A program made the position numbers and the translations under genes. Shown here in pieces: positions 38,071 through 60,744 of a stretch of 64,000 bases of DNA; the first letter of the stretch is position 1, and the number at the start of each line of letters is the position of its first letter. The notes beneath the pieces were generated by a model. It ran no database searches. It was not told the origin of the DNA and worked only from the letters and a program-made list of their open reading frames with translations. The DNA comes from Janibacter sp. HTCC2649 (GTDB lineage: Bacteria > Actinomycetota > Actinomycetes > Actinomycetales > Dermatophilaceae), in contig NZ_CH672413.1 of assembly GCF_000152705.1 (NCBI RefSeq), forward strand, positions 1,773,978 to 1,837,977, given 5' to 3'.

Positions 38071-38622
38071 TTAACGCAGACCCGGGGCGCCACGTTCCGT
38101 CTGCAGGACCCGCTCCCACATGATGCTGTCGCGCCAGACGCCACCGATGAGGAACGACGACGTGGTCGTGCCGTAGTTGTGGAAACCCTGGGACTCGAGC
38201 ACCCGCTGCGACGCGACGTTGGCCGCTGACGTCATGGCCTCGGCGCGATGGAGCCCCAGTTCGTCGGCCATCACCTCGAGGAGGAGTCCGAGCGCCCGCT
38301 GCGCATGACCTCGTCCCTGGTGGGTCGTGCCGATCCAGTAGCCGACCGAGCCGGCGAGGAAGGGCCCGCGCCGGATGCCGCCGACGGTCACCAGTCCGGC
38401 GATCTCCTCGCCCGCAAGAACGACACCGGGCCACATGCGTCCTTCGGCGTGCTCGGCGAGGTAACCCTCGAGCCTCTCCTGCTGACCGCGGGTCGTGAAG
38501 TAGTCGTCGGTTCGCGTCGGCGACGAGGTCGCAAAGGCCTCGCGATCACGCGCGAGATGAGTGGCGAGCGCCTCCGCGTCGTCCGGCGTCACCAACCGGA
38601 TGGAGGTCGGGCGCTCGGTCAC
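38071..38622 (-). CDS. GNAT acetyltransferase (RimJ/RimL-like)
   Basis: 183 residues. The acetyl-CoA loop is [20 protein letters not shown], followed by [13 protein letters not shown], typical of RimJ/RimL-type N-acetyltransferases. Its GTG overlaps the nuoN stop as GTGA, so it is translationally coupled to the end of the nuo operon. There is no known role for such an enzyme in complex I; the coupling may be incidental. The substrate is unknown. Confidence 0.85.
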
Positions 38623-41560: not shown

Positions 41561-43452
41561 GTGAGCACCGCCGTCCCGGCCGCGACGATCAGCCCGAGGG
41601 CGATGAGTCCGACGCCGGCCGACGGCGCCTCCCGACGGTGTCCGCGCTCGGCGAACCAGCCAGCGATGCCAGCCGATGCTGCTGCGCCGCGCACGTAGCC
41701 GTCGACGACCTCACGGTCGAGGAACTCGACGATCCTGGCCAGTCCCAGCACGGGTCGGGCAACAAGCGTTTGGTATGCCGTGTCGAACCCGAGGCCGGCA
41801 TCGGCCAGTTCGCGTTGGCGAGGGGTGCGGACGAAGGCGTCCCGCGGGTCCCCCGAGCCTCGGGCCAGGTAGGCGACACCGGCGCCCACGACGATGAGCA
41901 GGAGGGTGAGGAACATCCACCAGAACGACACACCGTGGATGTCGAAGAGTCCGGTGATGAGCACGAGCCCACCGACGACGGTGAGCACGGTGAGAACGGC
42001 CAGCGCAGCGAGAACGGAGTCCCACGGCATACCCGCGTGGTGGTCTTCCCGCTCCTCGATCTCGAGGGGGGCACTCACGACGAGGTGGGCGCGGGTGGCG
42101 TAGGCGGCAGTGAGCACGACGGTGACGAGGAGCGCGGCGAGGACGAGGATGCCCGGTCCGCCAGTGGTGATCGCGCCCTCGTAGGCCGTGACGATGACGT
42201 GTTCCTTGGAGAGCCCACCGACGACGAACGGCGCCCCGGCGAGGGCCAGCAGGCCGAAGAGCCAGGCGACCCGGGCGAGCTGGTGGACGTTCCCGGCGCC
42301 GCGCAGTGCGACAGCAAGGGTCGAGCCGGCGACGACCGACAGCCAGCCGATCGTGAGGAAGAGGAGGGACTTGAAGAGCGCGTGCGACCACATGTGGAAC
42401 AGCGCCGGGTCGGGGCCGATGTCCTTGGTCGCGGTGGCCAGCGCCGAGAGCATGATCGCGACCTGGCTCACCGTCGACCACGCGAGAAGGCGTTTGAGGT
42501 CGGACTGGCCCAGGGCGAGGACCGCTGCGCCGACCATCGTCACGGCGGTCGCGGCCCCGAGCAGCCAGCGGGCACCGTCGGCGAGGACGAGGATCGGGAA
42601 GAGCTGCGCGAGGACGACGGTTCCGGCCGCGACCATCGTGGCCGCGTGAATGAGGGCCGAGGCCGGCGTCGGGCCCTCCATCGCATCGGGCAGCCAGTCC
42701 TGGAACGGGAACTGCGCCGACTTGCCGAGGACGCCGATGACGACGAGGGCAATGAACAGGGAGCGCAACCACGGCTCACCGGGCGCGACACAGGCCGCCA
42801 CCTGAGTGGCCGAGTCGACGCACTCGGCGCCCGGCGACCGGGACCAGTGGGCGATGACGGCGTCGAGGCCGGACGACCCGGCACCGGCAACCAGTCCGAC
42901 GATGCCGAGGACGAAGCCGATGTCGGCGACACGCGTGACGATGAACGCCTTGTAGGCCGCTCGGCGGGCCGACTCCTTGCGCGACCAGTGACCGATGAGG
43001 AGATAGGAGCACCAGCCCATGACCTCCCACCCGACAAGGGTGAGGACGAGGTCGCGGGCGTGGACGACGAGCATCATCGCGGCCGTGAAGAGCGAGACGG
43101 TGGCAGCGAACTGGGCGAGACGGTCGTCGTCGGCGAGGTACCAGCGGGTGAAGACGAGGACCGCGACGACGACGAGGGCGACCACGGCGGCCACAGCGGC
43201 GGTGGCCGGGCCAGCACCGAGCTGGAGGGGCATCTCGAGAGCGCCGACGCGCAGCGGTTCACGCAGCTGGACGACGTCCTCGCCACGGGTCGGAGCCACG
43301 ATGAGACCGATGACGGAGACGACCGCAGAGAGGAGCGCCGCCACTGTGGCCAGCGATGCCGCGAAGTGCGGGGTCCGGCGCAGCGCGAGCGTGGCGACCG
43401 CCGCGATGACGGGGATGAGGACGAGCAGGGAGGAGACCTGGAGAGCGCTCAC
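41551..43452 (-). CDS. nuoL: NADH-quinone oxidoreductase-like subunit L
   Basis: 633 residues, normal for NuoL. SAQFPFQDWLPDAMEGPTPASALIHAATMV and WSTVSQVAIM are the conserved antiporter-like blocks, and a long C-terminal lateral helix is indicated by the terminal segment. It overlaps nuoK by 4 bases. It is the distal proton pump of the membrane arm. Confidence 0.96.
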   Translation of the reverse strand: MSALQVSSLLVLIPVIAAVATLALRRTPHFAASLATVAALLSAVVSVIGLIVAPTRGEDVVQLREPLRVGALEMPLQLGAGPATAAVAAVVALVVVAVLVFTRWYLADDDRLAQFAATVSLFTAAMMLVVHARDLVLTLVGWEVMGWCSYLLIGHWSRKESARRAAYKAFIVTRVADIGFVLGIVGLVAGAGSSGLDAVIAHWSRSPGAECVDSATQVAACVAPGEPWLRSLFIALVVIGVLGKSAQFPFQDWLPDAMEGPTPASALIHAATMVAAGTVVLAQLFPILVLADGARWLLGAATAVTMVGAAVLALGQSDLKRLLAWSTVSQVAIMLSALATATKDIGPDPALFHMWSHALFKSLLFLTIGWLSVVAGSTLAVALRGAGNVHQLARVAWLFGLLALAGAPFVVGGLSKEHVIVTAYEGAITTGGPGILVLAALLVTVVLTAAYATRAHLVVSAPLEIEEREDHHAGMPWDSVLAALAVLTVLTVVGGLVLITGLFDIHGVSFWWMFLTLLLIVVGAGVAYLARGSGDPRDAFVRTPRQRELADAGLGFDTAYQTLVARPVLGLARIVEFLDREVVDGYVRGAAASAGIAGWFAERGHRREAPSAGVGLIALGLIVAAGTAVLTWR

Positions 43453-43778
43453 GTCCCCCTCCCCTCACTCGACTTCGTGCCTTCCAGGGGTTCGTCGAGG
43501 TCGATCGAGCCGCGGTGGCGGAACGCCGTCAGGATCACCGCGAGCGCGACGACGACCTCGGCCGCGGCGATGGTGATGACGAAGAGCGGCAGGACGCTGG
43601 ACGACTCCCAGCGAGAGGGCGAGGTCGCGCCGGACGCGACGAGCAGGACGAGCGAGCCCGACAAGATGAGCTCGACGCCGATGAGCAGGAGCACGGCGTT
43701 GCGGCGGACGGTCACGCCCATGACACCGAGGCCCACGAGGATCGCGGCAAGGACATAGGGCCCAGCAAGGTGGATCAC
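43449..43778 (-). CDS. nuoK: NADH-quinone oxidoreductase-like subunit K
   Basis: 109 residues with three membrane helices; the conserved block GVMGVTVRRNAVLLLIGVELIL contains the essential Glu in the second helix. Overlaps nuoJ by 4 bases and nuoL by 4 bases. A short charged tail follows the last helix. Confidence 0.95.
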   Translation of the reverse strand: MIHLAGPYVLAAILVGLGVMGVTVRRNAVLLLIGVELILSGSLVLLVASGATSPSRWESSSVLPLFVITIAAAEVVVALAVILTAFRHRGSIDLDEPLEGTKSSEGRGT

Positions 43779-44293
43779 GACCCCACCACCCCAGGGTCAG
43801 TGGCTCTGCCGCGCGAGACGGCGAGCGCGGCGATCAACGCAGCGAGCAACAGCACCGACAGTGCCTCGAACGGCCACACCCACGTCCCGAAGAGCTCGGT
43901 CGCGACAGCCTGGTTGGAGATCTCGCGACGCTCGACGGCGCCACCGGCCAGTGGCAGCAGCGCCGCCAGCAACAGCGCGGTGGTCGCGGCTCCCGCAACA
44001 CCAGCCGCCACCCGACGCCACACCGGCACGTCGTGCGCCAGATCAGGACCGATCGGCGCCCGAGTCAGCATCAGGGCAAAGAGCACGAGCACGACCACGG
44101 CCCCGACATAGACGAGGACCAGGACCAGCGCCACCAGCTCGTGCCCGAGGACGAGCAGGGACCCCGCCACGCCGAGCAGCGCGACGACGAGCCACAGGGC
44201 GGCGTGCACCACCTGACGGGTCGTCACGGCGAGCAGGCCGGCGACAACCGCCAACAGCCCGCACGCCGCGAAGGCGAGGTCCAGTGAGGTCAT
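43775..44293 (-). CDS. nuoJ: NADH-quinone oxidoreductase-like subunit J
   Basis: 172 residues from ATG 44293, which overlaps the nuoI stop by 4 bases. Five membrane helices; the segment [21 protein letters not shown] is the conserved third helix of NuoJ that forms a pi-bulge switch in complex I. The C-terminal half is short relative to many NuoJ proteins. Confidence 0.92.
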
Positions 44294-44844
44294 GCGTCCG
44301 GTTCCTTCGCGGGTGGCCGCGGCGTCCGGGCAGGCTTGTTGATGGCGGCGATCTCGGCCGGTTCCGCGGCGCGCTCGTCCAGAGCGGGCGGCGCCGGGAC
44401 GGTCTCCATCCAGCCGCCGAGCCGGTCCTTGTCGTGGAGCAGATCCAAAATGCTGGTCTCGGCGTACTCGAACTGCGGACTCCAGAAGAGCGCGTCGAAC
44501 GGGCAGACCTCGATGCAGATCCCGCAGTACATGCAGAGCGAGAAGTCGATGGAGAAGTCGTCGAGGACGTTGCGCTGGCGCTCGCGGCCGCCCTCGGTCG
44601 TCGCGGGGATCGTCTCCTTGTGCGACTCGATGTAGATGCACCAGTCCGGGCACTCACGCGCGCAGAGCATGCAGCTCGTGCAGTTCTCCTCGAGGAGCGC
44701 GATGACGCCGCGACTGCGGGGCGGCAGGTCGGGTGCGACGTCGGGGTACTCGTGGGTGTGCACCGGCTTCATGGCCGTCTTGGCAGTCGTCGCCAAACCC
44801 TTGAGTATGCCGGGCAGGATGCCTTTGTCGTTGTGCTTGCTCAT
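44290..44844 (-). CDS. nuoI: NADH-quinone oxidoreductase-like subunit I (2x[4Fe-4S])
   Basis: 184 residues from ATG 44844, overlapping the nuoH stop as ATGA. Two ferredoxin motifs, [12 protein letters not shown] and [16 protein letters not shown], ligate clusters N6a and N6b that carry electrons towards NuoB. With no NuoE, F or G in the window, the electron donor to these clusters is unclear and may be ferredoxin or another dehydrogenase. Confidence 0.95.
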
Positions 44845-45797
44845 TGCGTCATCACTACGCCAATTCCGGTGAGGGCCAACTGGATCAGGGCCATGGGCAG
44901 GAGGACAAGCCACGCGAGTCGTTGGAGCTGGTCCTCACGCATGCGCGGCCAGGCCACGCGGAACCAGATGACGAGGATGGCGATGACGAAGCCCTTGAGC
45001 AGCGTCCACAACCACCCGATGTGGTCGTCGAACGGGCCACGCCATCCGCCGAGATAGAGGACGGCGAACAACAACGAGAAGATGACGATCCCGGCATACT
45101 CCGAAAGAAGGAAGAACGCGAAGCGCAACCCGGTGTACTCGGTCCACGGGCCCATGACGAGCTCGGCATCGGCGATGGGCATGTCGAACGGCGGACGCTG
45201 CAGCTCGGCAAGCGCCGCAACGAGGAAGACGATGGCGCCGGGCAGCTGCCAGATGAGCCACCACGGCGACCAGGCCTCGACGACCCCGGACAGGCTCAGC
45301 GTCCCGGCGGCCAAGCAAGCGGAGGCGACGGCGAGCACCAGCGGCAGCTCATAGGACACGAGCTGCGCGGCCGAACGCAGGGCGCCGAGCAGGGCGTACT
45401 TGTTGGCGCTGGCCCACCCGGCCATGAGCGTGCCGAGGGCGCCGACGCTCGTCGCGGCAAGGATGAGGACAGCGCTTGCGGGGACGTCGATGGCGACGAC
45501 GTCGTGCTGCAGCGGCAACGCCGCCATCGCCAGGAGATACGGGATGAGGGCGACGAAGGGCGCGATCTTGAAGATCGTCCGGTCGGCCGCACGCGGAGTG
45601 ATGTCCTCCTTCTGGACGAACTTCACCCCGTCGGCGACGAGCTGGGCCCACCCGTGGAACCCACCGGCATACATCGGTCCGAGTCGACCCTGCATGTGCG
45701 CCATGAGCTTGTGCTCCGTCTGCCCCACGAGCAGGGGGAACACCAGGAAGGCGGCCAACACGGCCACCGACCTCACGACCACCTCGAGCACGCTCAT
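44841..45797 (-). CDS. nuoH: NADH-quinone oxidoreductase-like subunit H
   Basis: 318 residues, about eight membrane helices. Conserved quinone-site sequences are [21 protein letters not shown] and [19 protein letters not shown]. It normally docks NuoB and NuoD at the membrane. It begins 52 bases after the nuoC stop, exactly where nuoD would be expected. Confidence 0.96.
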
Positions 45798-45849
45798 CGT
45801 GGGCAGCCTAGTAGTTGGCCACGCTCCAGGGTGGTTGCGTCCGGACGGG

Positions 45850-46383
45850 TCAGCGAGGTCCCCAGTCGGGGCCCGGAACCCCGGGTGCCTGGACGCGACG
45901 ACGCGACGGGGACTTGGCGGAGTCGTGCCCCTCCCCGGGCTCCTTGCCGCCGGGCCACTGCTTGGACGCGCGAGCCGCGAGGACGAACGACTTGCGCAGC
46001 GGCGTGCCCTCGAAACCTTCGGGAAGGAGCAGCGGGCGCATGCCCGAGCCGGAGCCGTCGTCGAAGCCGGTGAACTCGACCCCGAACATCTCGTGGGTCT
46101 CGCGCTCGTGCCAGGCGGCACCGGCATACACATCGGTGACGGAGACGATCGCGGCGCCTTCGGCGACGCGCGTCGTGAGGCGGATGGCGCGTATGCCGCG
46201 TCCGTCCGTTTCGTGGGAAATGTCCAGCGCGCGCAGGACGAGGCCATAGCCGGGAGCTGCGTCGTCATAGGTGCGGTCGACGGCGCTGAGCCAGTCGAAG
46301 AAGGTGAACCCGGTGGCCTGGGCGGCGGCGACGGCTTCGTGCCAGTCGGCCAGGGCCACGTCATGCAGCTCGTCGGTGCTCAC
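45850..46383 (-). CDS. nuoC: NADH-quinone oxidoreductase-like subunit C
   Basis: 177 residues from GTG 46383 (MSTDELHDVALADWHEAV); GTG 46401 would add six residues. The conserved block WHERETHEMFGVEFTGF and the downstream LLLPEGFEGTPLRKSFVLA define NuoC, the 30-kDa subunit of the peripheral arm. A non-conserved basic tail ends the protein. nuoD does not follow. Between nuoC and the next upstream gene is a large palindromic repeat. Confidence 0.9.
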   Translation of the reverse strand: MSTDELHDVALADWHEAVAAAQATGFTFFDWLSAVDRTYDDAAPGYGLVLRALDISHETDGRGIRAIRLTTRVAEGAAIVSVTDVYAGAAWHERETHEMFGVEFTGFDDGSGSGMRPLLLPEGFEGTPLRKSFVLAARASKQWPGGKEPGEGHDSAKSPSRRRVQAPGVPGPDWGPR

Positions 46384-46414
46384 GTGGCGAAGCCTAGCCA
46401 CAGAACCCCGCCGA

Positions 46415-49741: not shown

Positions 49742-50140
49742 TCAGCGGCGGCGGCGGGTGTTGCGTTCGCGGCGCGTGTCGCCGGGGGGAACCTGCGGGC
49801 GCGTCGGCACACTCTCGTCGAGGGCCAGCTGGGCCAGCACGAGGACGAGACCGGCGCCGATGAGGACGAGCCCGAACCGCGTGTGATCCAGGCCGAGGAG
49901 CCCGGCGCCGACGAGGGCGACCGCTCCCCCAGAAGCCAGGGCACGCGGCAGCTTGGGGATCCGGCGCCGGGCCCTGGGTGCGATGAACATGCCCCAGAGC
50001 GCGGCCACGAGCACGACGGCGAGCACGCCGACGACGAGACCCCCGAAGCCCCCTCCGACAACTCCCGACCCGAGCATGAAGACGCCGACCATGAACGCGA
50101 ACTCGATGATGAAAGCCACCAGTCCGAGCACGATGAGCAT
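49742..50140 (-). CDS. DUF2568/YrdB-like small membrane protein
   Basis: 132 residues with four predicted membrane helices (IVLGLVAFIIEFAFMVGVFML through AVALVGAGLLGL and LIGAGLVLVLAQLAL) and a basic, Arg-rich tail ending RRERNTRRRR. Its ATG overlaps the nuoB stop by one base (TGATG), so it is coupled to nuoB. The family is widespread in actinobacteria with no known function. Confidence 0.7.
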   Translation of the reverse strand: MLIVLGLVAFIIEFAFMVGVFMLGSGVVGGGFGGLVVGVLAVVLVAALWGMFIAPRARRRIPKLPRALASGGAVALVGAGLLGLDHTRFGLVLIGAGLVLVLAQLALDESVPTRPQVPPGDTRRERNTRRRR

Positions 50141-50778
50141 CAGGACGGTCTCTCGACTCGACCGCGGGTGACCTCTCCCGCCGAGGCGGTGCGGTGCGCG
50201 GTGTAGCGAGGTGCAGCGGCATACCCGTCGCCGTGGTCGACCCCACCGGCGCCACCGAGGCGATCAGAGATGGCGCGTCCGGAGAGCCGCTCGCCGGCGA
50301 TCTGCTCCTGGAGCTTGATGATGCCGTGGAGCAGGGCCTCGGGTCGTGGCGGGCACCCGGGCACGTAGACGTCGACGGGGATGAGCTGGTCCACGCCCTT
50401 GGTCACGGAGTACGAATCCCAGTACGGCCCACCGGAGTTGGAGCAGGCGCCGAACGAGATGACGTACTTCGGCTCGGGCATCTGGTCATAGAGGCGGCGG
50501 ATCGCGGGCGCCATCTTGTCGGTGACGGTGCCCGACACGACCATGAGGTCGGCCTGCCTGGGACCGGGCGCGAACGGGATCACTCCGAGGCGGATGAAGT
50601 CGTGGCGACCCATCGACGCCGCGATGAACTCGATGGCGCAGCAGGCGAGCCCGAAGTTGAAGACCCAGAGCGAATAGCGGCGTCCCCAGTTGAGGACGAC
50701 GCGGATCGGTTTGGGAGCGTGCTCCGAAAGCGGCCCGACGCGCGGCATCGGCAGCATCACGGGCTGGTCGGTGCTCAC
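50140..50778 (-). CDS. nuoB: NADH-quinone oxidoreductase-like subunit B
   Basis: 212 residues. Cluster N2 ligands are visible: the tandem Cys in [10 protein letters not shown], Cys in [12 protein letters not shown] and Cys in [13 protein letters not shown]. NuoB passes electrons to quinone together with NuoD. The C-terminal 40 residues ([19 protein letters not shown]) are an extension beyond the normal fold. It lies more than 3.7 kb from nuoC and 9 kb from nuoA on the same strand. Confidence 0.94.
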
Positions 50779-50849
50779 GAGCCCACCTTAGGTCAGCCCC
50801 TAGGCCCGCCGCCCCCGCGGTCCTAGACTGCTGCGCAGGAGGTTCACCC

Positions 50850-51137
50850 ATGGCCATCTTCATGATCGAGCGCACATTCGCCGAGCAGCTCACGCCAGAG
50901 CCGGGGGCCTTCCACGAACTCAACCTCATCAACGCCGACGAGGGCGTCCGCTGGTTCTATTCGTTCCTCTCCCAGGACGGTCTGAGGACCTTCTGCCTCT
51001 ACGAGGCCGATTCACGCGAAGCCATCGTCCGCGCGGCGCAGCGCGCTGGCGTGCCGGCCGACCTCATCATCGAGGTGACCCAAACGGTGACGCCAGACGG
51101 TCTGCTCCACCCCATCGCGGACGAACTCGTCGGCTGA
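50850..51137 (+). CDS. DUF4242 family small protein
   Basis: 95 residues with AGGAGG 7 bases before ATG 50850. The sequence MAIFMIERTFAEQL, WFYSFLSQDGLRTFCLYEADSREAIVRAAQRAGVPADLIIEV is typical of DUF4242, a ferredoxin-like fold whose characterised members bind nickel or other ligands. It is transcribed opposite to nuoB and the LuxR-type gene and appears monocistronic. Function unknown. Confidence 0.78.
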   Translation: MAIFMIERTFAEQLTPEPGAFHELNLINADEGVRWFYSFLSQDGLRTFCLYEADSREAIVRAAQRAGVPADLIIEVTQTVTPDGLLHPIADELVG

Positions 51138-51162
51138 GACGGCGGCACGAAGCAGGCGTGGT

Positions 51163-54036
51163 TCAGGGCCCGACATCGAGAAGGCCGTGCTCCGCCGCAT
51201 AGCGTGCGGCCATCGTGCGATTCGCCACCCCGGTCTTCTGCAGAATGCTTCGGACATGGTTGGTCACCGTGTTCTCGGTGATGAAGAGTCGCTCGGACAG
51301 TTGCCGGTTGCTCAGCCCCTCCGCGACCAGGCGGAGCACCTCCAACTCGCGGAAGGTGAGTCCCTCCGGGCCCGAGTGTGGGCCGTCGAGCCCAACACGA
51401 CCTCTCAGCCTGGGCGTTCGAAGCTGGCTCGCCGTCGCCACGGCTTCGCGCCGAGCGGCTTCGATGCGCCTGGTGGGAGCCCCTGACCTGCGCAGGTGGT
51501 CGACGATGGCGGCGAGGTCGTAGCCGACGAACAGGGGAGCACCCATGCGTTGGTCCATCGCGACGGCCGAGCGCAACAGGTCCTCGGCTCCCTCGCGTCC
51601 CAGCACGGAGTCCAGCAGGCCGAGATAGCGGTCAGCGCTTCCGAAGACGGCCAGCAAGGGGCCGACGGCAAGATTGCACCCTGCGAACTCGGCGAACACG
51701 GGCCGCAGGGCGGCCGCACAGCGGCGATCGTCGAGCCACGCGACAGCCTCCGACACGAACGCGATCGTCGCGGGCCAGGTGGCTGAGGCTCGGAACGGCT
51801 CGAGGTCGTGCTCGACCAGCCAGGTCAAGGCTCGGCGCGCACCATCACGGCGACCCAGCTCGCAGTACAGCGCGAGGAGCCCGGGTGCCCAGTGAGCAGC
51901 CACATCTTCGTGGCCTGTGATCAGTGGCCGCACCTGGTCGAGTTTCATCTGCTCACGTCGCAGGACGAAGGTCTGCATCGAGAGTCGCTCGGACATCTCA
52001 CCCAGTTCTCCGATGTCTTCGAGCCGCATGAGGCGGCTGCTGATGGCATCGGCGGTTCCCACGTCGCCCGAGGCGAACGCGCGCGCCCACTCGTAGCAAC
52101 CCGACTGCATGAGGTGGAAGGACGCTCCTGTCGCCGCCGCAGCGCTCGCCGTCTCGGCCCGGGCCGACTCGTGCCGTTCCGGGTCACCGGTGAGATAGCC
52201 GATCATGGCGAGCACCGTCGCTCCGTGGACCACGAGTGCTGGACTGTGCGCGGCACGACCCAACGCCACGAGCTCAGCGCACAGGAGGGCAGCGGCGCCC
52301 GCAGTCGATGGGCGGGGCATCGCGATGATGCTGCACTCCAGAGCGTGCGCAAGGGTGGCAGGGTCGCCGTTCTCACGCGCCAGGCCGAGAGCTTTGGCGA
52401 CGAGAAGACCGCCTCGTTCTGCGTCGCCCGAATACCTCAGCGCCCTGCCGAGGCTGGCAATCGCTGTGATTCGGGTGGTGTCGATGTCAGGAACATTCGA
52501 TCCGGACAGTGCCTGCGTCAGAAGTTCTGCCGCATCGAACCCCAGGTGCCCGATCCGCCAAGACGCATCCTCGTAGGCGACTGCAGCCCGGAGTCTGTTC
52601 ACGGGACTCCCGCCAACGACCACTGCGCGGTCGAGATCGCGGGCCAACGCGAAGGCCCCTGCGTCGCGATAGGACTCCGCAGCGAGGAGTCGAAGGTCGT
52701 CTCGATCCGCGACCCCCTCCGCGAGGTTCGCTGCGCGGGCGAACGCTTGGCCCGCCTCATGGTGCGCCAGTCGGTCGCGCGCAAGGCGGGCGGCTTCACG
52801 GAGATACTGGACCGCTTTTGGCGCATGGCCCAGAACGCGAGCGCTGGCGTAGTGATGCGCAATGCGCTGGATCCTGTTGGGCTCGTTGGCAAAACCCTCT
52901 TCGAGAGTGAGCGCGATCCTGGCGTGGGTGCGAGGCACAGCAGATACCTGCATGAGGTCGAGGATCGCCTGCCTTCCGAGGACGTGGTCGAAGGCGTAGG
53001 AGGAGCTGTCGTTGGCCAGGTTCCCGACGAGACCCACGGCTCCCGCACGATCCAGGGCGGCGAGAACAACCGGCACCTCAAGTCCTGCCACGTGGGCGAG
53101 CACTGGCACGGAGAAGTCGGCACCGATCACGGCGGCGATCTCGATGAGGAGACGACATTCTTCGTCGAGCTCGGCCAGTCGTCCGGCGTAGAGGTCCCGC
53201 ACCGTCTGTGGGGTGACCGCGAGCAACGGGTCAAGTCCGTCCAGTCCTCCGTGCGCCTCGACGTCGCGCAACACCTCACGCAGGTAGAAGGCGTTGCCCC
53301 CGCTCTGGTCACGCAAGATCGACGAGGCCGCCCGGGCCCGTCCCACCGGTGCTCCCGTTTCGGCGATGACGTACTCCGCGATGTCCTCGGCCCCCAGGGG
53401 AGTCAGATCGATGCGCCTGACCCCATCGAGTCGATAGAGCTGGGTCATGGTTGTCACGAGGGCGTCCGAACGGTCGGGGGGCGCACTTCGGTGCGATGCC
53501 AGACACAACAACTGCATGTCGCCCCCGTGCTGGGCGATGTGCGCCAACAAGCCCAACGAGGTCTTGCCCGCCCAGTGCAGGTCCTCGAGGACGAGGACGA
53601 GCGGATGCTGTCGACTGGCGGCACGAAGCACCTCGCACACGGCGTCGTACAGAACCTGTCGGTTGGTCACTTCCACGTTGTCGGGCTGACTCGTCGCTCC
53701 CGTCAACAGGTCAAGGCTCGCCGCCACCTCCGTGGCCGCCGCCGCATGCAGGGCTCTCAGGGGATCAATGAATGGCTGGTAGGGCGCGCCCAACTCGGCG
53801 ACACACGCTCCGAGCAGAACCGTCGCGCCGTGGGCGTGGAGCATCCTTCCCGCCTCGGCGATGAACCGTGATTTGCCAGCCCCCGCCTCACCCCCGACGA
53901 ACACGACCTGCTGCAACCCCGACTCGACCGCCGTCCACGCTTCCTCCAGGGCGTCGAACTCCGCCCGGCGCCCCACAAAGTGCGGGCCGGCGAACCGCCA
54001 CCGGGCGGGTAGATCAGGAGGTGCCCAACGCTCCAC
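51163..54036 (-). CDS. LuxR family ATP-binding regulator (LAL/MalT-like)
   Basis: About 957 residues if started at GTG 54036 (VERWAPPDLPARW); GTG 54039 is equivalent. Order: an ATPase with Walker A GGEAGAGKS (48-56), Walker B LVLVLEDLHWAG, a long helical TPR-like region, and a C-terminal LuxR HTH (LTFRELEVLRLVAEGLSNRQLSERLFITENTVTNHVRSIL). Such large regulators respond to nucleotides or effectors and activate nearby operons. A 26-bp near-palindrome lies in its upstream region. The divergent target is a small secreted protein gene; the neighbouring NRPS/peptidase unit is another possible target. Confidence 0.88.
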   Translation of the reverse strand: MERWAPPDLPARWRFAGPHFVGRRAEFDALEEAWTAVESGLQQVVFVGGEAGAGKSRFIAEAGRMLHAHGATVLLGACVAELGAPYQPFIDPLRALHAAAATEVAASLDLLTGATSQPDNVEVTNRQVLYDAVCEVLRAASRQHPLVLVLEDLHWAGKTSLGLLAHIAQHGGDMQLLCLASHRSAPPDRSDALVTTMTQLYRLDGVRRIDLTPLGAEDIAEYVIAETGAPVGRARAASSILRDQSGGNAFYLREVLRDVEAHGGLDGLDPLLAVTPQTVRDLYAGRLAELDEECRLLIEIAAVIGADFSVPVLAHVAGLEVPVVLAALDRAGAVGLVGNLANDSSSYAFDHVLGRQAILDLMQVSAVPRTHARIALTLEEGFANEPNRIQRIAHHYASARVLGHAPKAVQYLREAARLARDRLAHHEAGQAFARAANLAEGVADRDDLRLLAAESYRDAGAFALARDLDRAVVVGGSPVNRLRAAVAYEDASWRIGHLGFDAAELLTQALSGSNVPDIDTTRITAIASLGRALRYSGDAERGGLLVAKALGLARENGDPATLAHALECSIIAMPRPSTAGAAALLCAELVALGRAAHSPALVVHGATVLAMIGYLTGDPERHESARAETASAAAATGASFHLMQSGCYEWARAFASGDVGTADAISSRLMRLEDIGELGEMSERLSMQTFVLRREQMKLDQVRPLITGHEDVAAHWAPGLLALYCELGRRDGARRALTWLVEHDLEPFRASATWPATIAFVSEAVAWLDDRRCAAALRPVFAEFAGCNLAVGPLLAVFGSADRYLGLLDSVLGREGAEDLLRSAVAMDQRMGAPLFVGYDLAAIVDHLRRSGAPTRRIEAARREAVATASQLRTPRLRGRVGLDGPHSGPEGLTFRELEVLRLVAEGLSNRQLSERLFITENTVTNHVRSILQKTGVANRTMAARYAAEHGLLDVGP

Positions 54037-54094
54037 CACATCCCCAAGATAGGCCTGGCCGCACCCCAGCACGCCCGCCTTTCCCAATCGTGAT

Positions 54095-54120
54095 CGCCAT
54101 GGCCAGATCTGACCATGGCG
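54095..54120. promoter_or_regulatory. 26-bp near-perfect palindrome between luxR-type and secreted protein genes
   Basis: The 26 bases read symmetrically at 12 of 13 pairs about a central AGATCT, with outer arms CGCCATGG and CCATGGCG. It lies 59 bases from the LuxR-type start and about 100 bases from the divergent gene. Likely operator for the LuxR-type regulator or another factor. Confidence 0.6.
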
Positions 54121-54222
54121 GGGCTGAAACGGAGTTCGCCAGTTGTGGTCAGGTGCCCGCCGTGCGCGATCCCTAGCGTCGAAGGCGTCAGAAGAACCCA
54201 CTCCATGAAGGAACTGATCACC

Positions 54223-54582
54223 GTGAAAACTGTCATCACCCGCAGCGCCGCTGCAGTCGGCACATCGTTCCTCGGTGTGCTCCTGCTGACCGGCCCTGCC
54301 AACGCCAAGGACATCGGCCCCGGCGAACCCCTCGCCGCTTCGATGGCCACCCACCCGTGCAGCAACGTCGTCCCGGAGGACCTCGCTGCCTGCCTCGACG
54401 CCTACAACATCGAGACGGCTCACTACGAGGGGCCCATCGCCCCTGCGAGCGTTCCGCCAAACCCCAACTGGGTCTCACCCGGCGCGTTGGGACTCACCGC
54501 ACTGGGCGCCGTCGTCATCGGCGGAGTCGTCATCACCACCGTGGGAGCCAGCCACCATCGGCACGCGACTCGACCTGCGTGA
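54223..54582 (+). CDS. Small exported or membrane-anchored protein
   Basis: 119 residues from GTG 54223, with AAGGA 10 bases upstream; an ATG at 54205 is possible. The N-terminus is a signal-like helix (TSFLGVLLLTGPANAKD). A middle stretch with two Cys residues (HPCSNVVPEDLAACLDAYNIE) suits a disulfide-bonded domain. A second helix (ALGLTALGAVVIGGVVITTVG) near the C-terminus suggests membrane anchoring, followed by a His-rich end (SHHRHATRPA). It is divergent from the LuxR-type gene. No family recognised. Confidence 0.6.
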   Translation: MKTVITRSAAAVGTSFLGVLLLTGPANAKDIGPGEPLAASMATHPCSNVVPEDLAACLDAYNIETAHYEGPIAPASVPPNPNWVSPGALGLTALGAVVIGGVVITTVGASHHRHATRPA

Positions 54583-54590
54583 CTCCACCT

Positions 54591-54628
54591 CCGGCAGCCG
54601 ACCGAATCCTTATCCGGTCGGCTGCCGG
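54591..54628. terminator. Bidirectional terminator at the end of the NRPS-peptidase unit
   Basis: Arms CCGGCAGCCGACCG (54591-54604) and its complement (54615-54628), with a 10-base loop, lie between convergent genes and cover the peptidase stop. Confidence 0.8.
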
Positions 54629-55947
54629 CGTGCGTCGGGGAGTGCCGGGAGGGGTTCGGCGCGCAGCCAGGCGTGGAAGAGCCCGCTCAATCGACGGCCG
54701 GCGGTCCGCTCGGACAGGGCCTCGAACTCGGCCGTCGTGACGCTGCCACCGTTGTGCCGCGCCACCCAGTCGCGCAGGATGGCGAAGAAGGTGGTGTCGC
54801 CGACCTCGAGGCGCAGGGCGTGCAGGGTCAGGGCTCCACGCTTGTAGATGCGGTCGTCGAACATCTCCGAGGCACCCGGCGAGATGACGATGACGTCCTG
54901 CGGCAGGGCGGCGAGCTTCTCGTGGTGACGTGCGGCCTGCTCCCCCGTCGTGGCGATCCCTGCCGCCTCGGACCAGAGCCACTCGGCGTAGCAGGCGAAG
55001 CCCTCGTGCAGCCAGATGTCGCTCCACTGCGCAGCGGTGACGGCGTTGCCGAACCACTGGTGCGACAGCTCGTGAGCGATGAGTCGCTGCGCCTCCCACG
55101 ACCGAGTGCAGTGGTTGGAGCCGAAGGTCGACGCCGCCTGCGACTCGAGAGGGATCTCGAGGACGTCGTCGGTGATGACGACGGCATACTCCGCGAAAGG
55201 GTAGGGACCGAAGAGCTCGACGAACGTCGACACCATCTGCGCCTGGTCGGCGAACGCCTCCGCGACGGCGGACCGCAGTCGCGGCGGGTGGTGCAGCCGC
55301 ACCGGCACGGGAGCCCCCGACACCTCGGTGGTCTCGTAGCGACCGATCTGCACCGTCGCGAGGTAGGGCGCCATCGGCTCGTCCATCGCGTAGATCCACC
55401 GGGTCGCGCGCCCGTCCTTGCGTCGCTCGGCGAGCGTGCCGTTGGCAACGACGGCGTATGCCGTGTCCGTCGTGACGCTGATGGCGTAGGTCGCCTTGTC
55501 GGCGGCTCGGTCGTTGCACGGGAACCACGAGGGGGCGCCGTGCGGCTGTGACGCGACGATGACGCCGTCGGCGAGTTCTTCCCAGCCCGCCCGACCGTCG
55601 GGACCGGGAACGGTGCGGGGGGTGCCGGCATACGCGATCGTCAGCGAGAGAACGGTGCCGGCGGGCACGGTGTCCGCGAAGCGCAGCGTGAGGTGTGATG
55701 CCCGGTGCGCCCAACGGCGCAAGTTCGCCCCCGTGAGGTCGACCCGAGTCACCTTGAGCGCGTGGAGGTCGAGCGTGATGGTCGGGGTGTCGACGGCGAG
55801 GGTCAGCGTGAGGTGCGCGCGACCGGTGAGGTGGTTGCCCGCAGCCTTGTAGGTGAGGTCGAGCTCGTAGTGGTCGACGCCGTATGCCGTGTCGCCGTGT
55901 CCGGGCATGTAGGGGTCAGCCTGCGTGCCCGTTGCGTTCGCGCTCAC
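54610..55947 (-). CDS. Short M1-family zinc metallopeptidase coupled to the Pls-like synthetase
   Basis: 445 residues from GTG 55947, which overlaps the synthetase stop as GTGA; ATG 55959 would overlap more. Zinc site HELSH (292-296) and third ligand Glu315 in WLHEGF, spaced 18 residues apart as in M1. The GAMEN position reads LESQAAS, a variant seen in short bacterial M1 enzymes, and the ERAP1-like C-terminal domain is missing. No signal peptide is visible. Its coupling to a Pls/PosA-type synthetase resembles the pairing of epsilon-poly-lysine synthetase with a poly-lysine-degrading zinc aminopeptidase reported in Streptomyces. Self-protection or product trimming is a hypothesis. Confidence 0.85.
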   Translation of the reverse strand: MSANATGTQADPYMPGHGDTAYGVDHYELDLTYKAAGNHLTGRAHLTLTLAVDTPTITLDLHALKVTRVDLTGANLRRWAHRASHLTLRFADTVPAGTVLSLTIAYAGTPRTVPGPDGRAGWEELADGVIVASQPHGAPSWFPCNDRAADKATYAISVTTDTAYAVVANGTLAERRKDGRATRWIYAMDEPMAPYLATVQIGRYETTEVSGAPVPVRLHHPPRLRSAVAEAFADQAQMVSTFVELFGPYPFAEYAVVITDDVLEIPLESQAASTFGSNHCTRSWEAQRLIAHELSHQWFGNAVTAAQWSDIWLHEGFACYAEWLWSEAAGIATTGEQAARHHEKLAALPQDVIVISPGASEMFDDRIYKRGALTLHALRLEVGDTTFFAILRDWVARHNGGSVTTAEFEALSERTAGRRLSGLFHAWLRAEPLPALPDARRQPTG

Positions 55948-58900
55948 TCGTCCACCCATGGTCCGACAGGGTTGCCGATCCAGCGGGTCCGATCGGGGAC
56001 CGACTCGCCGCGCATCACGAGAGATACGGGACCGACGGTGGCGTGCCGACCGATCTGGGCGGCGGGCAGGATCACCGAGTTGGGGCCGAGGGTGCCGCCG
56101 CGCTTGACGGTGACGGTGTCCATCGAGAGCACCCGGTCGTGGAAGAGGTGGGTCTGGACGACCGTGCCGGCGTTGATCGAGGCGCCGTCGTCGAGGCGGA
56201 CGAGGTCTGCTTCGGGCAGCCAGTAGGTCTCGAGCCAGACGCCGTCGCCGATCTTGGCGCCCATCGACCGCAGCCACATGTTGAGGGCGAGGGTTCCGGT
56301 CGCGGCGCGGGCGAACCACGGAGCGGCGAGGACCTCGACGAAGGTGTCGGCGAGCTCGTTGCGCCACACGAAGGAGGACCAGAGCGCGTGGTTGCCCGGC
56401 CGGAGCTTGCCGACGAGCAGCCACTTGGCGGTGGTCGCGCACCCGGCCGCGAGCGCACCGGCCGCGAGGAGGACGAATCCGCTGAGGAGGACGGCCCAGA
56501 TGAGGCCGTGGCTGAGCAATAGCTCGATGGCGGCGACGACGAGGACGACGAGGGCGATGTGGATCCACACAGGCACGGCACGCAGGGCCTCGACGACGGC
56601 GCGGCCCACGCGCAGCTTGGTGGGCGGGGAGTAGGTGCGGGTGGAGTCCGCGTCGGAGCCTTCGCGCCGTAGTGGCCGCGGCGGGGAGCCGAGCCATGAG
56701 GTGCCGGCCTTGGCCTTCTTGCGGCGAGGGGCGGCCGAGAGGACGGCGACGAGTCCCTGCTTGGGCACCTTGCGACCGGGAGCGGCCATGCCGGAGTTGC
56801 CGACGAAGGCGCCCTTGCCGATGCGTACGTGCTCGACCCGCAGCCAGCCGGCACCCAGCTCATAGCCCGCGACCATCGTGTCGTCGGCGAGGAAGGCACC
56901 GGCTCCGACCCGGGTGAAAGTCGGGATGAGCAGGACGGTCGAGGCCTCGACGTCGGGGCCGAGGTCGGCGCCGAGCCCGCGCAGCCACGACGGTGTGAGG
57001 CTGCTGGAGTAGAGCGGGAAGAGCCACGTCCGCGCGTCGTCGAGGATGCGCAGCGTCGTCCACGCCTGCCACGCCTGACGTCCGTGGACGGGGTGGGCGC
57101 CGGCGCGCAGACCGATCGCGAGCAGTCGGACGAGGACGAGGACCATCACCGCAAGGGCGACGAAGCCGACGGTGGCCCCGAGGGGGATCCAGAGCAGTGC
57201 GGTCCCCAGAGCGCCGCCGATGGAGGTCGTGTCCGCGAGGGCAGGAAGGGCCACCAGGGCGCCGATGGCGACCGCCGCGAGAGGGAGGAGCGAGACGACG
57301 ACGGCCGACGCGGCATACGCGCCCAACCAGATTGGCTTGTTGGCCGGGCGGGCGTCGTGCCACGGGCCGCGTGCCGTGCCGGAGGGTTCGGCTGGGGCTC
57401 CGGACCACGACTCGTCGGCAGGGACCGCGCCGAAAACGGCTGAGCCGGGGGCGATTTCGGCGCGTTCGCCGACATCCGCGCCGGGGAGGAGGGAGCTGCG
57501 GGCACCGACCCGTGCGCCTTCGCGGACCCGGATCGGTCCGACGATGAACTTCGCGCCGTCGATCCAGTGCCCGCGCAGGTCGACCTCGGGCTCGATCGAG
57601 ACTCCGTCGCCGAGGTCGAGCATGCCGGTGACCGGCGGGACGGAGTGCAGGTCGACATCGCTTCCTACGCGGGCACCGAGTGCCCGGGCGAACACCTTGA
57701 TGAAGGGCGCACCCGAGAGGTTGGCGGCGCCGAGCTCGTCGACGAGGCGTTCGGCCAGCCAGACGCGCAGGTGGACCTCTCCGCCGCGGGGGTACTCCCC
57801 CGGCTCGAGGTGACGCAGCAGCGTGCGGACGCCGAGGGCGGCCAGGGCCATCCGCCCGACCGGCGAGATGAGGAGGACCCATCCGAGGGCGAGCCACCAC
57901 CAGTGCACGATCGGCAGCCAGGTGAGGTCGAGGACGGACCGTGCGACGGCGTTGCCGAGGCCGATCCAGGTGAGCCACCGCAGGCCAGCGATGCTGCGCA
58001 GGACGACGGAGGCGAGGATCTGAGCGCTCTGGGTCTTGCCGGGCACCGGTGGCACGTCACGGTTGAGTCGACCGGTGGGCGTCTCCATCTCGTCGAGCGC
58101 CACCGCGAGGGCGGCGAGACTCGGGTGCTCGTAGATGTCGGCGACCGTGACCTCGGGGAAGCGTTCGCGCAGCCGGCTCACGAGCTGGGCCGCACTGAGC
58201 GAGCCGCCACCGACGTCGAAGAAGTCCTCGTCGGAAGTGGTCGGCGGGCCGCCCAGGATGCTCGCCCACAGCCCCGAGATCCAGCCGGCGGTGTCACCCG
58301 TGTCGGCACCACCGGCGGGGTTGGTGGGGGCCAGGGGCCACGGCAGGGCGTCGCGGTCGATCTTGCCGGAGGTGCGCGTGGGCAGGGTGTCGACGACGGC
58401 GAGGCGCGGGACGAGGGCGGCCGGCATCGACTGGCGCATCGACTCGGTTGCCGCCTTCGCGTCGAACGTGTCGTTCGTCGTGACGTAGCCGATGAGCAGG
58501 GTGTTGCCCGCCTCGCTCCGGCGCACGGCGGCGGCCGCACCACTCACACCGGGTAGGGACAGCAGAGCGGAGTCGATCTCGCCGAGCTCGATGCGTCGGC
58601 CGCCGACCTTCACCTGGTCGTCGGCCCGCCCGAGGAAGACGAGCCCCTCGGGCTCGTTGCGCACGAGGTCACCCGAGCGGTAGGCGCGGTCCCAGCCCAA
58701 GGTGGGCATGGCGGCATACGCCGCTCTGTCCTTCTCCTCATCGAGGTAGCGAGCGAGACCGACGCCGCCGATGATGAGCTCGCCGCTCTCCCCCTCGGGG
58801 ACGGGCTGGCCGGTCGCGTCGACGACGGCGAGGTCCCAGCCAGCGAGCGGGAGGCCGATGCGGACTGGTGGTTCGCCAGTGAGCTGGGCTCCACAGGCGA

Positions 58901-59819
58901 CGACGGTGGCCTCGGTGGGGCCGTAGGTGTTCCAGACCTCGCGGTGCTCGTTGGCCAGGCGCGCGCCGATCTCGGGCGGGCACGCTTCGCCGCCGAGGAT
59001 GAGGAGGCGGACGTCCGCGAGCGCCTCTGTCGGCCACAGGGTCACGAGGGTCGGCACGGTCGAGACGATGGTGATGCGGTTGGCAGTGAGCCACGGGCCG
59101 AGCTCGACACCTGAGCGGACGAGAGAACGGGGTGCGGGGACGAGGCACGCGCCGTAGCGCCACGCGAGCCACATCTCCTCGCAACTCGCGTCGAAGGCGA
59201 CCGAGAGGCCAGCCATGACTCGGTCGCCCGGACCAATGGGCCTGTCCTGCAAGAACATTCGCGACTCGGCGTCGACGAAGGCAGCCGCATTGCGGTGCGT
59301 GACGGCAACGCCCTTGGGCTTGCCGGTCGAGCCGGACGTGAAGATGATCCAGGCGTCGTCGTCGGTCGTCGGGTCCTCGCGTGGTCCCGTCTGCTCAGCG
59401 GCGTATGCCGTGTCGTCACCGTGCGTGGAGCCGCCGCCGACCGCTCGGACCACGAGGTCAGTTGTGATGATCGCGGCGACGTCGGCCTCTCCGAAGACGA
59501 TGCGCGCGCGCTCGTCCGGGTCGTCGTAGTCGACCGGGACGTACGCCGCACCGGCGACGAGGATGCCGGCGATGGCGACGTAGAGGTCGAGAGTGCCCGA
59601 GGGGATGCGGATGCCGACCCGGTCACCGCGTTCGACGCCGGCCGCACGCAGGGCGTCGGCCACGTCCTCCGCAGCCTCGGCGAACTCGCCATAGGTGAGC
59701 ACGCTCGTGCCGTTGTCGACGGCGGGCGCGTCAGGGTGGGCCTCGATCGTGGCGCGCAGGATGTCAACGAGGGTGCGTGGGCTGGGGGCCTCACTCCCTC
59801 GGAGCAGGGGGTCGCTCAC
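55944..59819 (-). CDS. Pls/PosA-type membrane NRPS (A-T-TM with three tandem C-terminal domains)
   Basis: 1291 residues. Adenylation domain: A3 IIFTSGSTGKPKGVAVTH (158-175), A4 FDASCEEMW (209-217), A5 NTYGPTEATV, A7 YRSGDLVR, A8 GRADDQVKVGGRRIELGEID, A10 Lys486. Carrier Ser540 in VGGGSL. Then six membrane helices in three pairs (near 604-652, 832-902, 1083-1128), separating three soluble segments (about 680-810, 940-1030, 1140-1290) with hexapeptide-like left-handed beta-helix repeats. This is the layout of epsilon-poly-L-lysine synthetase and relatives, which make iso-amide homopolymers without a separate condensing enzyme. My hand-derived code DAESIGTVVK resembles the lysine code DAESIGSVAK. 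Its GTG overlaps the nuoA stop (GTGA). The product is unproven. Confidence 0.87.
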   Translation of the reverse strand: MSDPLLRGSEAPSPRTLVDILRATIEAHPDAPAVDNGTSVLTYGEFAEAAEDVADALRAAGVERGDRVGIRIPSGTLDLYVAIAGILVAGAAYVPVDYDDPDERARIVFGEADVAAIITTDLVVRAVGGGSTHGDDTAYAAEQTGPREDPTTDDDAWIIFTSGSTGKPKGVAVTHRNAAAFVDAESRMFLQDRPIGPGDRVMAGLSVAFDASCEEMWLAWRYGACLVPAPRSLVRSGVELGPWLTANRITIVSTVPTLVTLWPTEALADVRLLILGGEACPPEIGARLANEHREVWNTYGPTEATVVACGAQLTGEPPVRIGLPLAGWDLAVVDATGQPVPEGESGELIIGGVGLARYLDEEKDRAAYAAMPTLGWDRAYRSGDLVRNEPEGLVFLGRADDQVKVGGRRIELGEIDSALLSLPGVSGAAAAVRRSEAGNTLLIGYVTTNDTFDAKAATESMRQSMPAALVPRLAVVDTLPTRTSGKIDRDALPWPLAPTNPAGGADTGDTAGWISGLWASILGGPPTTSDEDFFDVGGGSLSAAQLVSRLRERFPEVTVADIYEHPSLAALAVALDEMETPTGRLNRDVPPVPGKTQSAQILASVVLRSIAGLRWLTWIGLGNAVARSVLDLTWLPIVHWWWLALGWVLLISPVGRMALAALGVRTLLRHLEPGEYPRGGEVHLRVWLAERLVDELGAANLSGAPFIKVFARALGARVGSDVDLHSVPPVTGMLDLGDGVSIEPEVDLRGHWIDGAKFIVGPIRVREGARVGARSSLLPGADVGERAEIAPGSAVFGAVPADESWSGAPAEPSGTARGPWHDARPANKPIWLGAYAASAVVVSLLPLAAVAIGALVALPALADTTSIGGALGTALLWIPLGATVGFVALAVMVLVLVRLLAIGLRAGAHPVHGRQAWQAWTTLRILDDARTWLFPLYSSSLTPSWLRGLGADLGPDVEASTVLLIPTFTRVGAGAFLADDTMVAGYELGAGWLRVEHVRIGKGAFVGNSGMAAPGRKVPKQGLVAVLSAAPRRKKAKAGTSWLGSPPRPLRREGSDADSTRTYSPPTKLRVGRAVVEALRAVPVWIHIALVVLVVAAIELLLSHGLIWAVLLSGFVLLAAGALAAGCATTAKWLLVGKLRPGNHALWSSFVWRNELADTFVEVLAAPWFARAATGTLALNMWLRSMGAKIGDGVWLETYWLPEADLVRLDDGASINAGTVVQTHLFHDRVLSMDTVTVKRGGTLGPNSVILPAAQIGRHATVGPVSLVMRGESVPDRTRWIGNPVGPWVDE

Positions 59820-60175
59820 GTCCAGCGGAGGAGTCCGCGGCGGGCCGCGTGGAGGAGGCCGATGACGATGATGCCGATGAAGATTGCGATCTCGACGAGC
59901 GACGCAGCACCCAGCTGGGCGTCACGCAGGACGTAGGCCCACGGGAAGAGATAGACGGCGTCGACGGCGAAGACGACATAGAGGAAGGCGTAGGACAGGT
60001 AGCGGACCTGGCTCTGGGCCCAGCCCTGGCCGACCGGGTCGACACCGGACTCGTAGGTCGAGAGCTTGGCCGTCGAGGGAGCCCGCGGGGCGAGGAGGCG
60101 GCGAGCGCCCATCGCGGCGATCACCAGCACCAGTCCGATGCCCAGCACCCCGGCTGCGGCGAGGTATCCCGTCAT
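59816..60175 (-). CDS. nuoA: NADH-quinone oxidoreductase-like subunit A
   Basis: 119 residues, three membrane helices. The loop between helices one and two (STYESGVDPVGQGWAQSQVRYLSYAFLYVVFAVDAVYLFPW) contains the conserved ESG, Q-R-Y and F-D-x-E/D-like features of NuoA. It is followed directly by the Pls-like synthetase in place of nuoB, with which it shares a 4-base overlap. Downstream nuo genes are 9 to 21 kb away. Confidence 0.93.
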   Translation of the reverse strand: MTGYLAAAGVLGIGLVLVIAAMGARRLLAPRAPSTAKLSTYESGVDPVGQGWAQSQVRYLSYAFLYVVFAVDAVYLFPWAYVLRDAQLGAASLVEIAIFIGIIVIGLLHAARRGLLRWT

Positions 60176-60225
60176 GACTCAGAGCCTAGCCACGCCAGAT
60201 GAACAGCGGGTGACGGCTCTCAAGG

Positions 60226-60744
60226 TCACTCGAGGTAGCAGGCTCCATAGATGCTCGCCACGGTGTTGGCCCCGGTGCCGACGCTCAGCTCCGAGCCGTC
60301 CTCGTCGTAGAGCGACATCTGGTGCTCGCCGGGCTTGTCGAGCAGGGTGTGCTCGTCGCCGTAGCCTCGCTTGGCCGCGACGGCCTTGACGGCTTCCCAG
60401 GCGCGGTCCCAGTCAGCCTCGGGAATGCCGCCCAGGGCGCCACCACTCGTGAGCACCTCCGAGGTGGCGCCATCGACCTGGGAGAACGGCTCCTTGCAGC
60501 CGGAGCCCGACTCGACCGTCGGCGCCGGAGAGCGCCACGCAAGCGCCGGGGCGACCTCGCTCAACGCAGATCGCACCTCCGACAGGAGCGCCAGGTTGTC
60601 GCGCTGGGCCTGCGCCGACGTGCGGCGTGACTCGAGTTGTTGTTGGGTGTCCACGTCAGCTCCTTGGCAAGCGGTGAGGATCATGGCCGCCAGCACTGCA
60701 ACGAGCATTGCCAACGGTCGGCGTGACTGCAATGGGGGCCTCAC
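60226..60744 (-). CDS. Lipoprotein, last gene of the WXG100/DUF1023 cassette
   Basis: 172 residues from GTG 60744, which overlaps the hydrolase stop as GTGA. The N-terminus ends in a lipobox (LAAMILTAC), so the protein is probably anchored on the outside of the membrane. The mature part (QGADVDTQQQLESRR, then EADWDRAWEAVKAVAAKRGYGDEH, ending ASIYGACYLE) has an amphipathic helix and a beta-rich end. No family recognised. As the partner of a secreted lipase-like protein it could be an immunity or accessory protein; this is inference. Confidence 0.75.
   Translation of the reverse strand: MRPPLQSRRPLAMLVAVLAAMILTACQGADVDTQQQLESRRTSAQAQRDNLALLSEVRSALSEVAPALAWRSPAPTVESGSGCKEPFSQVDGATSEVLTSGGALGGIPEADWDRAWEAVKAVAAKRGYGDEHTLLDKPGEHQMSLYDEDGSELSVGTGANTVASIYGACYLE

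Follow-up and report, generated by a model that had tools for sequence, protein, structure and literature searches.

In Streptomyces albulus, the gene pldII (1404 bp) is reported to encode the major epsilon-poly-lysine-degrading enzyme, located outside the membrane, and to be translationally coupled to the adjacent synthetase gene, pls (PMC9223678). A Pls–peptidase operon has been described in Corynebacterium variabile, with production of epsilon-poly-lysine in a heterologous host, and homologues of Pls are reported for many coryneform genera (PMC8117764). The same protein family includes PosA, the delta-poly-L-ornithine synthetase of Acinetobacter, for which a model of the terminal domain as a threefold beta-helix has been presented (PMC10522769). 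Here we consider a gene pair of this kind in Janibacter sp. HTCC2649, in a stretch of 64,000 nucleotides (nt) (contig NZ_CH672413.1, positions 1,773,978 to 1,837,977; the whole stretch is hereafter the window, and its own numbering is used throughout). With a probability of roughly 0.9, the pair comprises an epsilon-poly-L-lysine synthetase (Pls) and a partner poly-lysine-degrading M1 aminopeptidase of the PldII type:

55944-59819, minus strand: pls, probable epsilon-poly-L-lysine synthetase of 1291 amino acids (aa), GTG start, architecture A-T-(TM2-LbH)x3, pocket code DAESIGTVVK (assigned from domains, code, clade and model)
54610-55947, minus strand: pldII-like gene for a probable M1 zinc aminopeptidase of 445 aa, GTG start at 55947 (assigned from M1 match, position and size)

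The reading frames of pls and of the peptidase gene are both intact and lie on the minus strand where the original prediction placed them, and the Pls/PosA-type architecture claimed there for the pls product, A-T-TM2-C1-TM2-C2-TM2-C3, is borne out. Residues 22-357 form an AMP-binding domain and residues 513-572 a phosphopantetheine site (Pfam), followed at residues 599-1285 by the Pls/PosA terminal domain TIGR02353 (683 bits, against a cut-off of 423; NCBIfam); the family matches of Pls and of the peptidase are far above chance level. An AlphaFold2 model of residues 597-1291, built on an alignment of 49 rows, has a predicted local distance difference test score (pLDDT) of 91.2 and a predicted template-modelling score (pTM) of 0.90, and shows three cycles, each with a helix pair and short beta-helix strands, so that the A-T portion leads into a terminal domain of three C segments, each preceded by a helix pair; a crude hydropathy scan alone misses the opening helix of the first of these pairs. 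The best solved-structure matches of the modelled domain are hexapeptide acyltransferases, aligned over one repeat (best Z 7.6, 150 residues, root-mean-square deviation 4.0), and a match of this order would support a common beta-helix arrangement, not a function. Most of the solved structures listed for the terminal domain (50 of 77 listed at E <=0.001, and 50 entries in a second listing) are single beta-helix domains, and there is no solved Pls terminal domain among those listed. The genome has two phosphopantetheinyl-transferase matches, one of them in a frame of 229 aa, which we take to be the size of an Sfp-type enzyme.

As to which polymer might be made, the top solved relative of Pls is the epsilon-poly-L-lysine synthase 7wew (606 bits), which presumably originates from S. 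albulus, and the two A domains are identical in 60% of positions (301/498 columns). The ornithine enzyme PosA (8g95) gave 205 bits, a comparison in which it matters that the 8g95 chain is shorter and holds the A-domain core only. Ten pocket positions, placed by hand according to what we take to be the PheA numbering, read DAESIGTVVK in the window protein and likewise in 7wew, a confirmed Pls. The mapping was checked on a paralogue (L160), in which it gives DGESISVVNK, exactly as published for the epsilon-poly-beta-lysine enzyme (PMC10522769). The pocket of PosA is given as DMEHNGTVSK (PMC10522769), and its Met at the second and Ser at the ninth position are replaced in the window protein by Ala and Val.

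The code is widely shared. Among 99 code rows, 89 read DAESIGTVVK (87 relatives, the window protein and 7wew), one (L062) is one position off, and nine belong to other types with codes beginning DFE or DGES; put differently, 87 of 88 lysine-type rows are identical to 7wew in code, L062 being the exception. (L151, L153 and L157 duplicate L009, L010 and L011, both in this count and among the M1 rows considered below.) Thirty further rows from the bacterial family (L121-L150), which lack their first residues and were therefore read separately, include 29 that are readable (all except L132), 25 with DAESIGTVVK and four with DAESVGTVVK. These 30 were included in a FastTree phylogeny of 125 rows, as was L158, which has no single full-length row and entered through its terminal-domain open reading frame (ORF) while staying outside the code count; L160, counted among the codes, was dropped from the tree by a coverage filter. 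All lysine-type rows in the tree, the window Pls among them, fall into one clade of 116 rows, separate from the remaining nine, of which eight have other codes and the ninth is L158, with an A domain encoded by a gene of its own. Clades are labelled here by pocket code and not by characterized full-length Pls proteins, and because FastTree was used with long outgroup branches only the coarse split is to be trusted. On that split the synthetase groups with lysine-type relatives, away from the synthetases of other homopolymers and not in a clade of another function, which favours epsilon-poly-L-lysine, and the code, the structure match and the clade together therefore point to an epsilon-poly-L-lysine synthetase. 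Another cationic homopolymer (poly-ornithine, poly-diaminobutyrate, poly-diaminopropionate or poly-beta-lysine) would be in keeping with the shared protein family and with the occurrence, in the same bacterial family, of paralogues with the pockets DFEYMGTVTK and DGESISVVNK, but it is made very improbable by the identity of the code with that of 7wew, by the clade and by the far weaker match to PosA; in addition, general scans saw no diamino-acid supply genes beside pls, although no search was aimed at them.

The family has other synthetases in its own right. Two of its genomes (L160 and L161) have pockets reading DGESISVVNK and DGESVSVVNK, of the type printed for epsilon-poly-beta-lysine (PMC10522769). 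Another genome, G045, has a split synthetase (L158:4874-10920), in which one ORF encodes an A-T protein and another the terminal domain, the latter with a carrier domain of its own; the genome also carries a Pls with the lysine code (L138) and a synthetase with a DFE code (L163).

The peptidase gene follows pls with a 4-nt GTGA overlap (55944-55947), as had been predicted, its start lying within the pls stop. A mechanical ORF list extends the frame to 56697, inside pls, whereas the M1 match does not set in until residue 25 of the frame as read from the GTG at 55947. The zinc site (HELSHx18E), the family Glu and the catalytic-type Tyr are intact, and the corresponding residues (HExxH..E, Glu and Tyr) are kept in 116 of 116 M1 rows, three loci being counted twice. 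Of 80 named loci, 77 have an M1 gene downstream of pls, within about 150 nt except in three, where it is about 650 nt off; the 30 best-scoring family loci all have one. In 56 of the 80 the peptidase could start in frame inside the stop of pls (overlapping by four bases in 34 and by one in 22), so that the peptidase gene comes directly after pls and is positioned for coupling in the window and in most relatives. One might suppose that the M1 protein is a housekeeping aminopeptidase that has become a neighbour by chance, as its homology is to M1 enzymes broadly and its top solved match is a zinc metalloprotease known by its label only. The constancy of the arrangement makes this highly unlikely, as do the presence of two other M1 genes in the genome and the fact that M1 genes are directly beside none of ten synthetases of other types (one of which, L165, could be checked over 0.6 kb only). 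Within the window there is a further M1-family aminopeptidase (an ORF of 820 aa at 34644-37106), about 17.5 kb beyond the partner of pls.

The domains, pocket code, clade, predicted fold, intact M1 active site and conserved coupling were observed directly; the lysine substrate, the isopeptide product, the action of the peptidase on the polymer and its protective role are proposed by analogy with described homologues. On that analogy, the A domain of the window Pls would activate L-lysine with ATP, and the lysine would be held as a thioester on the carrier domain. The membrane-embedded threefold beta-helix domain would then link successive lysines from alpha-carboxyl to epsilon-amine, giving a cationic isopeptide, and the peptidase, made by coupled translation, would take lysines off the polymer, thereby protecting the producer and recycling lysine. 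The parallel with Streptomyces that had been drawn from the outset thus holds, in that a coupled zinc peptidase stands where S. albulus has its poly-lysine-degrading enzyme: the window pair and S. albulus pls–pldII have in common the architecture, the pocket code (by way of 7WEW) and, following the synthetase, a coupled peptidase of comparable size (PMC9223678). They differ in that the window pair lies between two genes for subunits of a respiratory complex, nuoA2 and nuoB2, and that its A domain is 60% identical to 7WEW. With C. variabile the likeness is that of an actinobacterial Pls outside Streptomyces forming one operon with a peptidase; the organism is a different one, and its product has been proven, whereas that of the window pair is deduced from its genes (PMC8117764). 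PosA resembles the window protein in belonging to the A-T-terminal domain family and in its threefold beta-helix model, but differs in its pocket and is a much weaker match (PMC10522769).

Several observations weigh against a functional poly-lysine system with a PldII-type partner. With C. variabile, no polymer could be detected before the synthetase had been placed under a Streptomyces pls promoter (PMC8117764), and because that organism has the same gene pair, the window locus may, by the same token, be silent. PldII is reported to act outside the membrane, whereas hydropathy alone reveals no hydrophobic signal or transmembrane segment in the window peptidase, and its assignment to PldII is made from position, family and size (445 aa, compared with a pldII gene of 1404 bp), not from sequence (PMC9223678). 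Three Gordonia loci (L056, L057 and L065) have a lysine-code pls and no peptidase in the stretch that was fetched. Weak M1 matches (27-30% identity) occur 2.7-2.9 kb downstream of three of the ten other-type synthetases, all with DFE codes (L162, L163 and L164) and on the same strand, one locus having a match on the other strand too; M1 genes in the wider neighbourhood are therefore not exclusive to the lysine type, and a more distant peptidase may accompany DFE-code synthetases as well.

Thus, what the original prediction observed is confirmed and its interpretation is partly supported. It had singled out the pair as the most likely undescribed biosynthetic unit of the window, and this does not stand: such a pair has been published for Streptomyces (PMC9223678) and Corynebacterium (PMC8117764), and the M1 gene is present in nearly all the named loci. 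The pair is ordinary, and its unusual point is a lineage-specific place inside a respiratory-enzyme cluster. A search of the open-licence literature for 'Knoellia' together with 'polylysine', in that spelling only, found no publication. Knoellia and its relatives would join the actinobacteria that have an intact poly-lysine locus; the degrading peptidase emerges as a near-constant companion of lysine-type Pls across 80 named relatives, usually close enough for coupled translation; and the respiratory cluster supplies close relatives that do or do not carry the cassette at one and the same site, natural pairs that should be useful for studying the role of poly-lysine in a host other than Streptomyces.

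That setting had been overlooked. The pair is lodged between nuoA2 and nuoB2 of a second complex I cluster (nuo2), in which the nuoA2 stop and the pls start share a GTGA overlap. The surrounding features are:

59816-60175, minus strand: nuoA2, NuoA/NdhC-like subunit of the second complex I, 119 aa, with a GTGA overlap (59816-59819) between its stop and the start of pls
54591-54628, minus strand: GC hairpin of 17 pairs across the peptidase stop codon, with no U tract (from folding)
51163-54423, minus strand: AAA ATPase/LuxR regulator, 1086 aa, downstream of the peptidase and judged to be outside the unit
50140-50778, minus strand: nuoB2 (PF01058, Pfam), adjoining nuoA2 in sampled genus members without pls
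38619-46401, minus strand: remainder of nuo2 as a whole
45850-46401, minus strand: C2 (Pfam)
within ORF 44841-46364, minus strand: H2 (Pfam)
within ORF 44290-44913, minus strand: I2 (Pfam, 4Fe-4S domains)
within ORF 43775-44653, minus strand: J2 (Pfam)
43449-43778, minus strand: K2-like (position and size only)
41551-43452, minus strand: L2 (Pfam)
40067-41560, minus strand: M2-like (Proton_antipo_M match at this place)
38619-40070, minus strand: N2-like (Proton_antipo_M match at this place)

Four of nine sampled genomes of the genus have pls, and in the other five nuoA2 is followed directly by nuoB2. The nuoA2/pls GTGA overlap is kept in all three of the sampled genus relatives that have the pair. 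In two further genomes (G022 and G068) the cassette occupies the same A2-B2 slot, and in another (G051) it is in the B2-C2 slot, beside an ABC/FtsX transporter set, so that the pair is found inside nuo2 in three genera and two slots. Linkage (within 20 kb) occurs in at least seven of the 73 family genomes above the synthetase cut-off, a lower bound because in many of the 73 one gene is on another contig than the other. In a survey of 297 genomes of the order, the family included, nuoA2 was found in 39 (E <=1e-30) and a synthetase in 86 (E <=1e-140), and none of the sampled genomes outside the family has both on one contig; in four of these (G180, G195, G223 and G236) they are on different contigs of draft assemblies, so that linkage cannot be judged. 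A single nuo2-borne clade was rejected, as forcing the seven synthetases together costs 42.6 log units (approximately unbiased test, p 0.00016), because L011, located elsewhere in its genome, groups with L156, whose place is the slot between B2 and C2. The cassette may have entered nuo2 once and left it once, or may have entered twice, and the two slots, with a tree needing two label changes, leave room for two independent captures. One genome (G068) has two lysine-code pls–peptidase pairs, one in nuo2 (L155) and the other elsewhere (L157).

Does the location have a meaning? In a high-yield S. albulus, ATP is reported to be limiting for poly-lysine, and expression of NADH-quinone oxidoreductase to be raised (PMC10157215); co-expression with a respiratory complex would therefore make sense. 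Pls and its peptidase might, then, act within the nuo2 programme, with translation coupled to nuoA2 tying an ATP-costly polymer to the respiratory state, and the overlap kept within the genus and the recurrence of the pair in three genera and two slots are consistent with this. We nevertheless consider it unlikely, as five of the nine genomes sampled in the genus lack the pair while retaining nuoA2-nuoB2, linkage was seen in a small part of the synthetase-bearing family genomes and in none of those sampled outside the family, the overlap is missing from L154 and L155 (with 59 and 246 nt from the nuoA2 stop to the aligned start), and a hairpin covers the window peptidase stop, ahead of nuoB2. 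Moreover, unrelated genes also sit within the cluster, which may for that reason be a mere landing place, and a landing site without functional meaning explains the location equally well. It seems correspondingly unlikely that nuo2 captured the cassette in Knoellia and two related genera in such a way that, in Knoellia, translation tied to nuoA2 brings about synthesis of a costly antimicrobial polymer whenever the alternative complex is induced.

The hairpin may mark the end of a nuoA2-pls-peptidase transcript: the stretch 54575-54630 folds at -38.6 kcal/mol (z -6.6), though no hairpin of comparable strength was found at the peptidase end in the six relatives that were folded. Scans of 50100-60400 found no promoter-like site (0, with 0.5 expected by chance) and no T-tract terminator on the pls strand (one on the other strand, 2.4 being expected by chance).

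A large LuxR-type regulator downstream of the peptidase had also been predicted, and it is indeed present (51163-54423), but its inclusion in the unit fails on synteny. As a regulator of the pathway it was rejected, because no match to it lies between peptidase and nuoB2 in L151-L155 (all five with the pair in the slot), and in L169 and L171, two of the five genus members without pls, the gene is found on the upstream side of nuoA2, next to an opposed ORF. In the window, that opposed ORF (54115-54582, 155 aa, no Pfam match) is at the junction of the peptidase and LuxR genes, together with the strong hairpin. The LuxR/ATPase gene and the opposed ORF (51163-54582) seem to move as a unit, being found either 3' of the peptidase or upstream of nuoA2.

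NuoA2 itself is distinct from the NuoA of the main nuo operon, 31 kb away. It has FAVD where the main copy has FDIE, at what we take to be the acidic pair of NuoA, and YESG where the main copy has YECG, at a Cys position. By hand count, nuoA2 is kept at above 140 bits in 118 of 149 family genomes. No NuoD was found in the nuo2 cluster (38619-60175), the PF00346 matches of the genome being in the main nuo operon and, at a distance of about 100 kb, in one ORF of 395 aa (L186:3974-5161) that adjoins a methyltransferase gene and has folate genes nearby. In cyanobacteria, too, NuoD is encoded away from the remaining subunits, and the top solved-structure match of NuoA2 is subunit 3 of a cyanobacterial/plastid-type NAD(P)H-quinone oxidoreductase.

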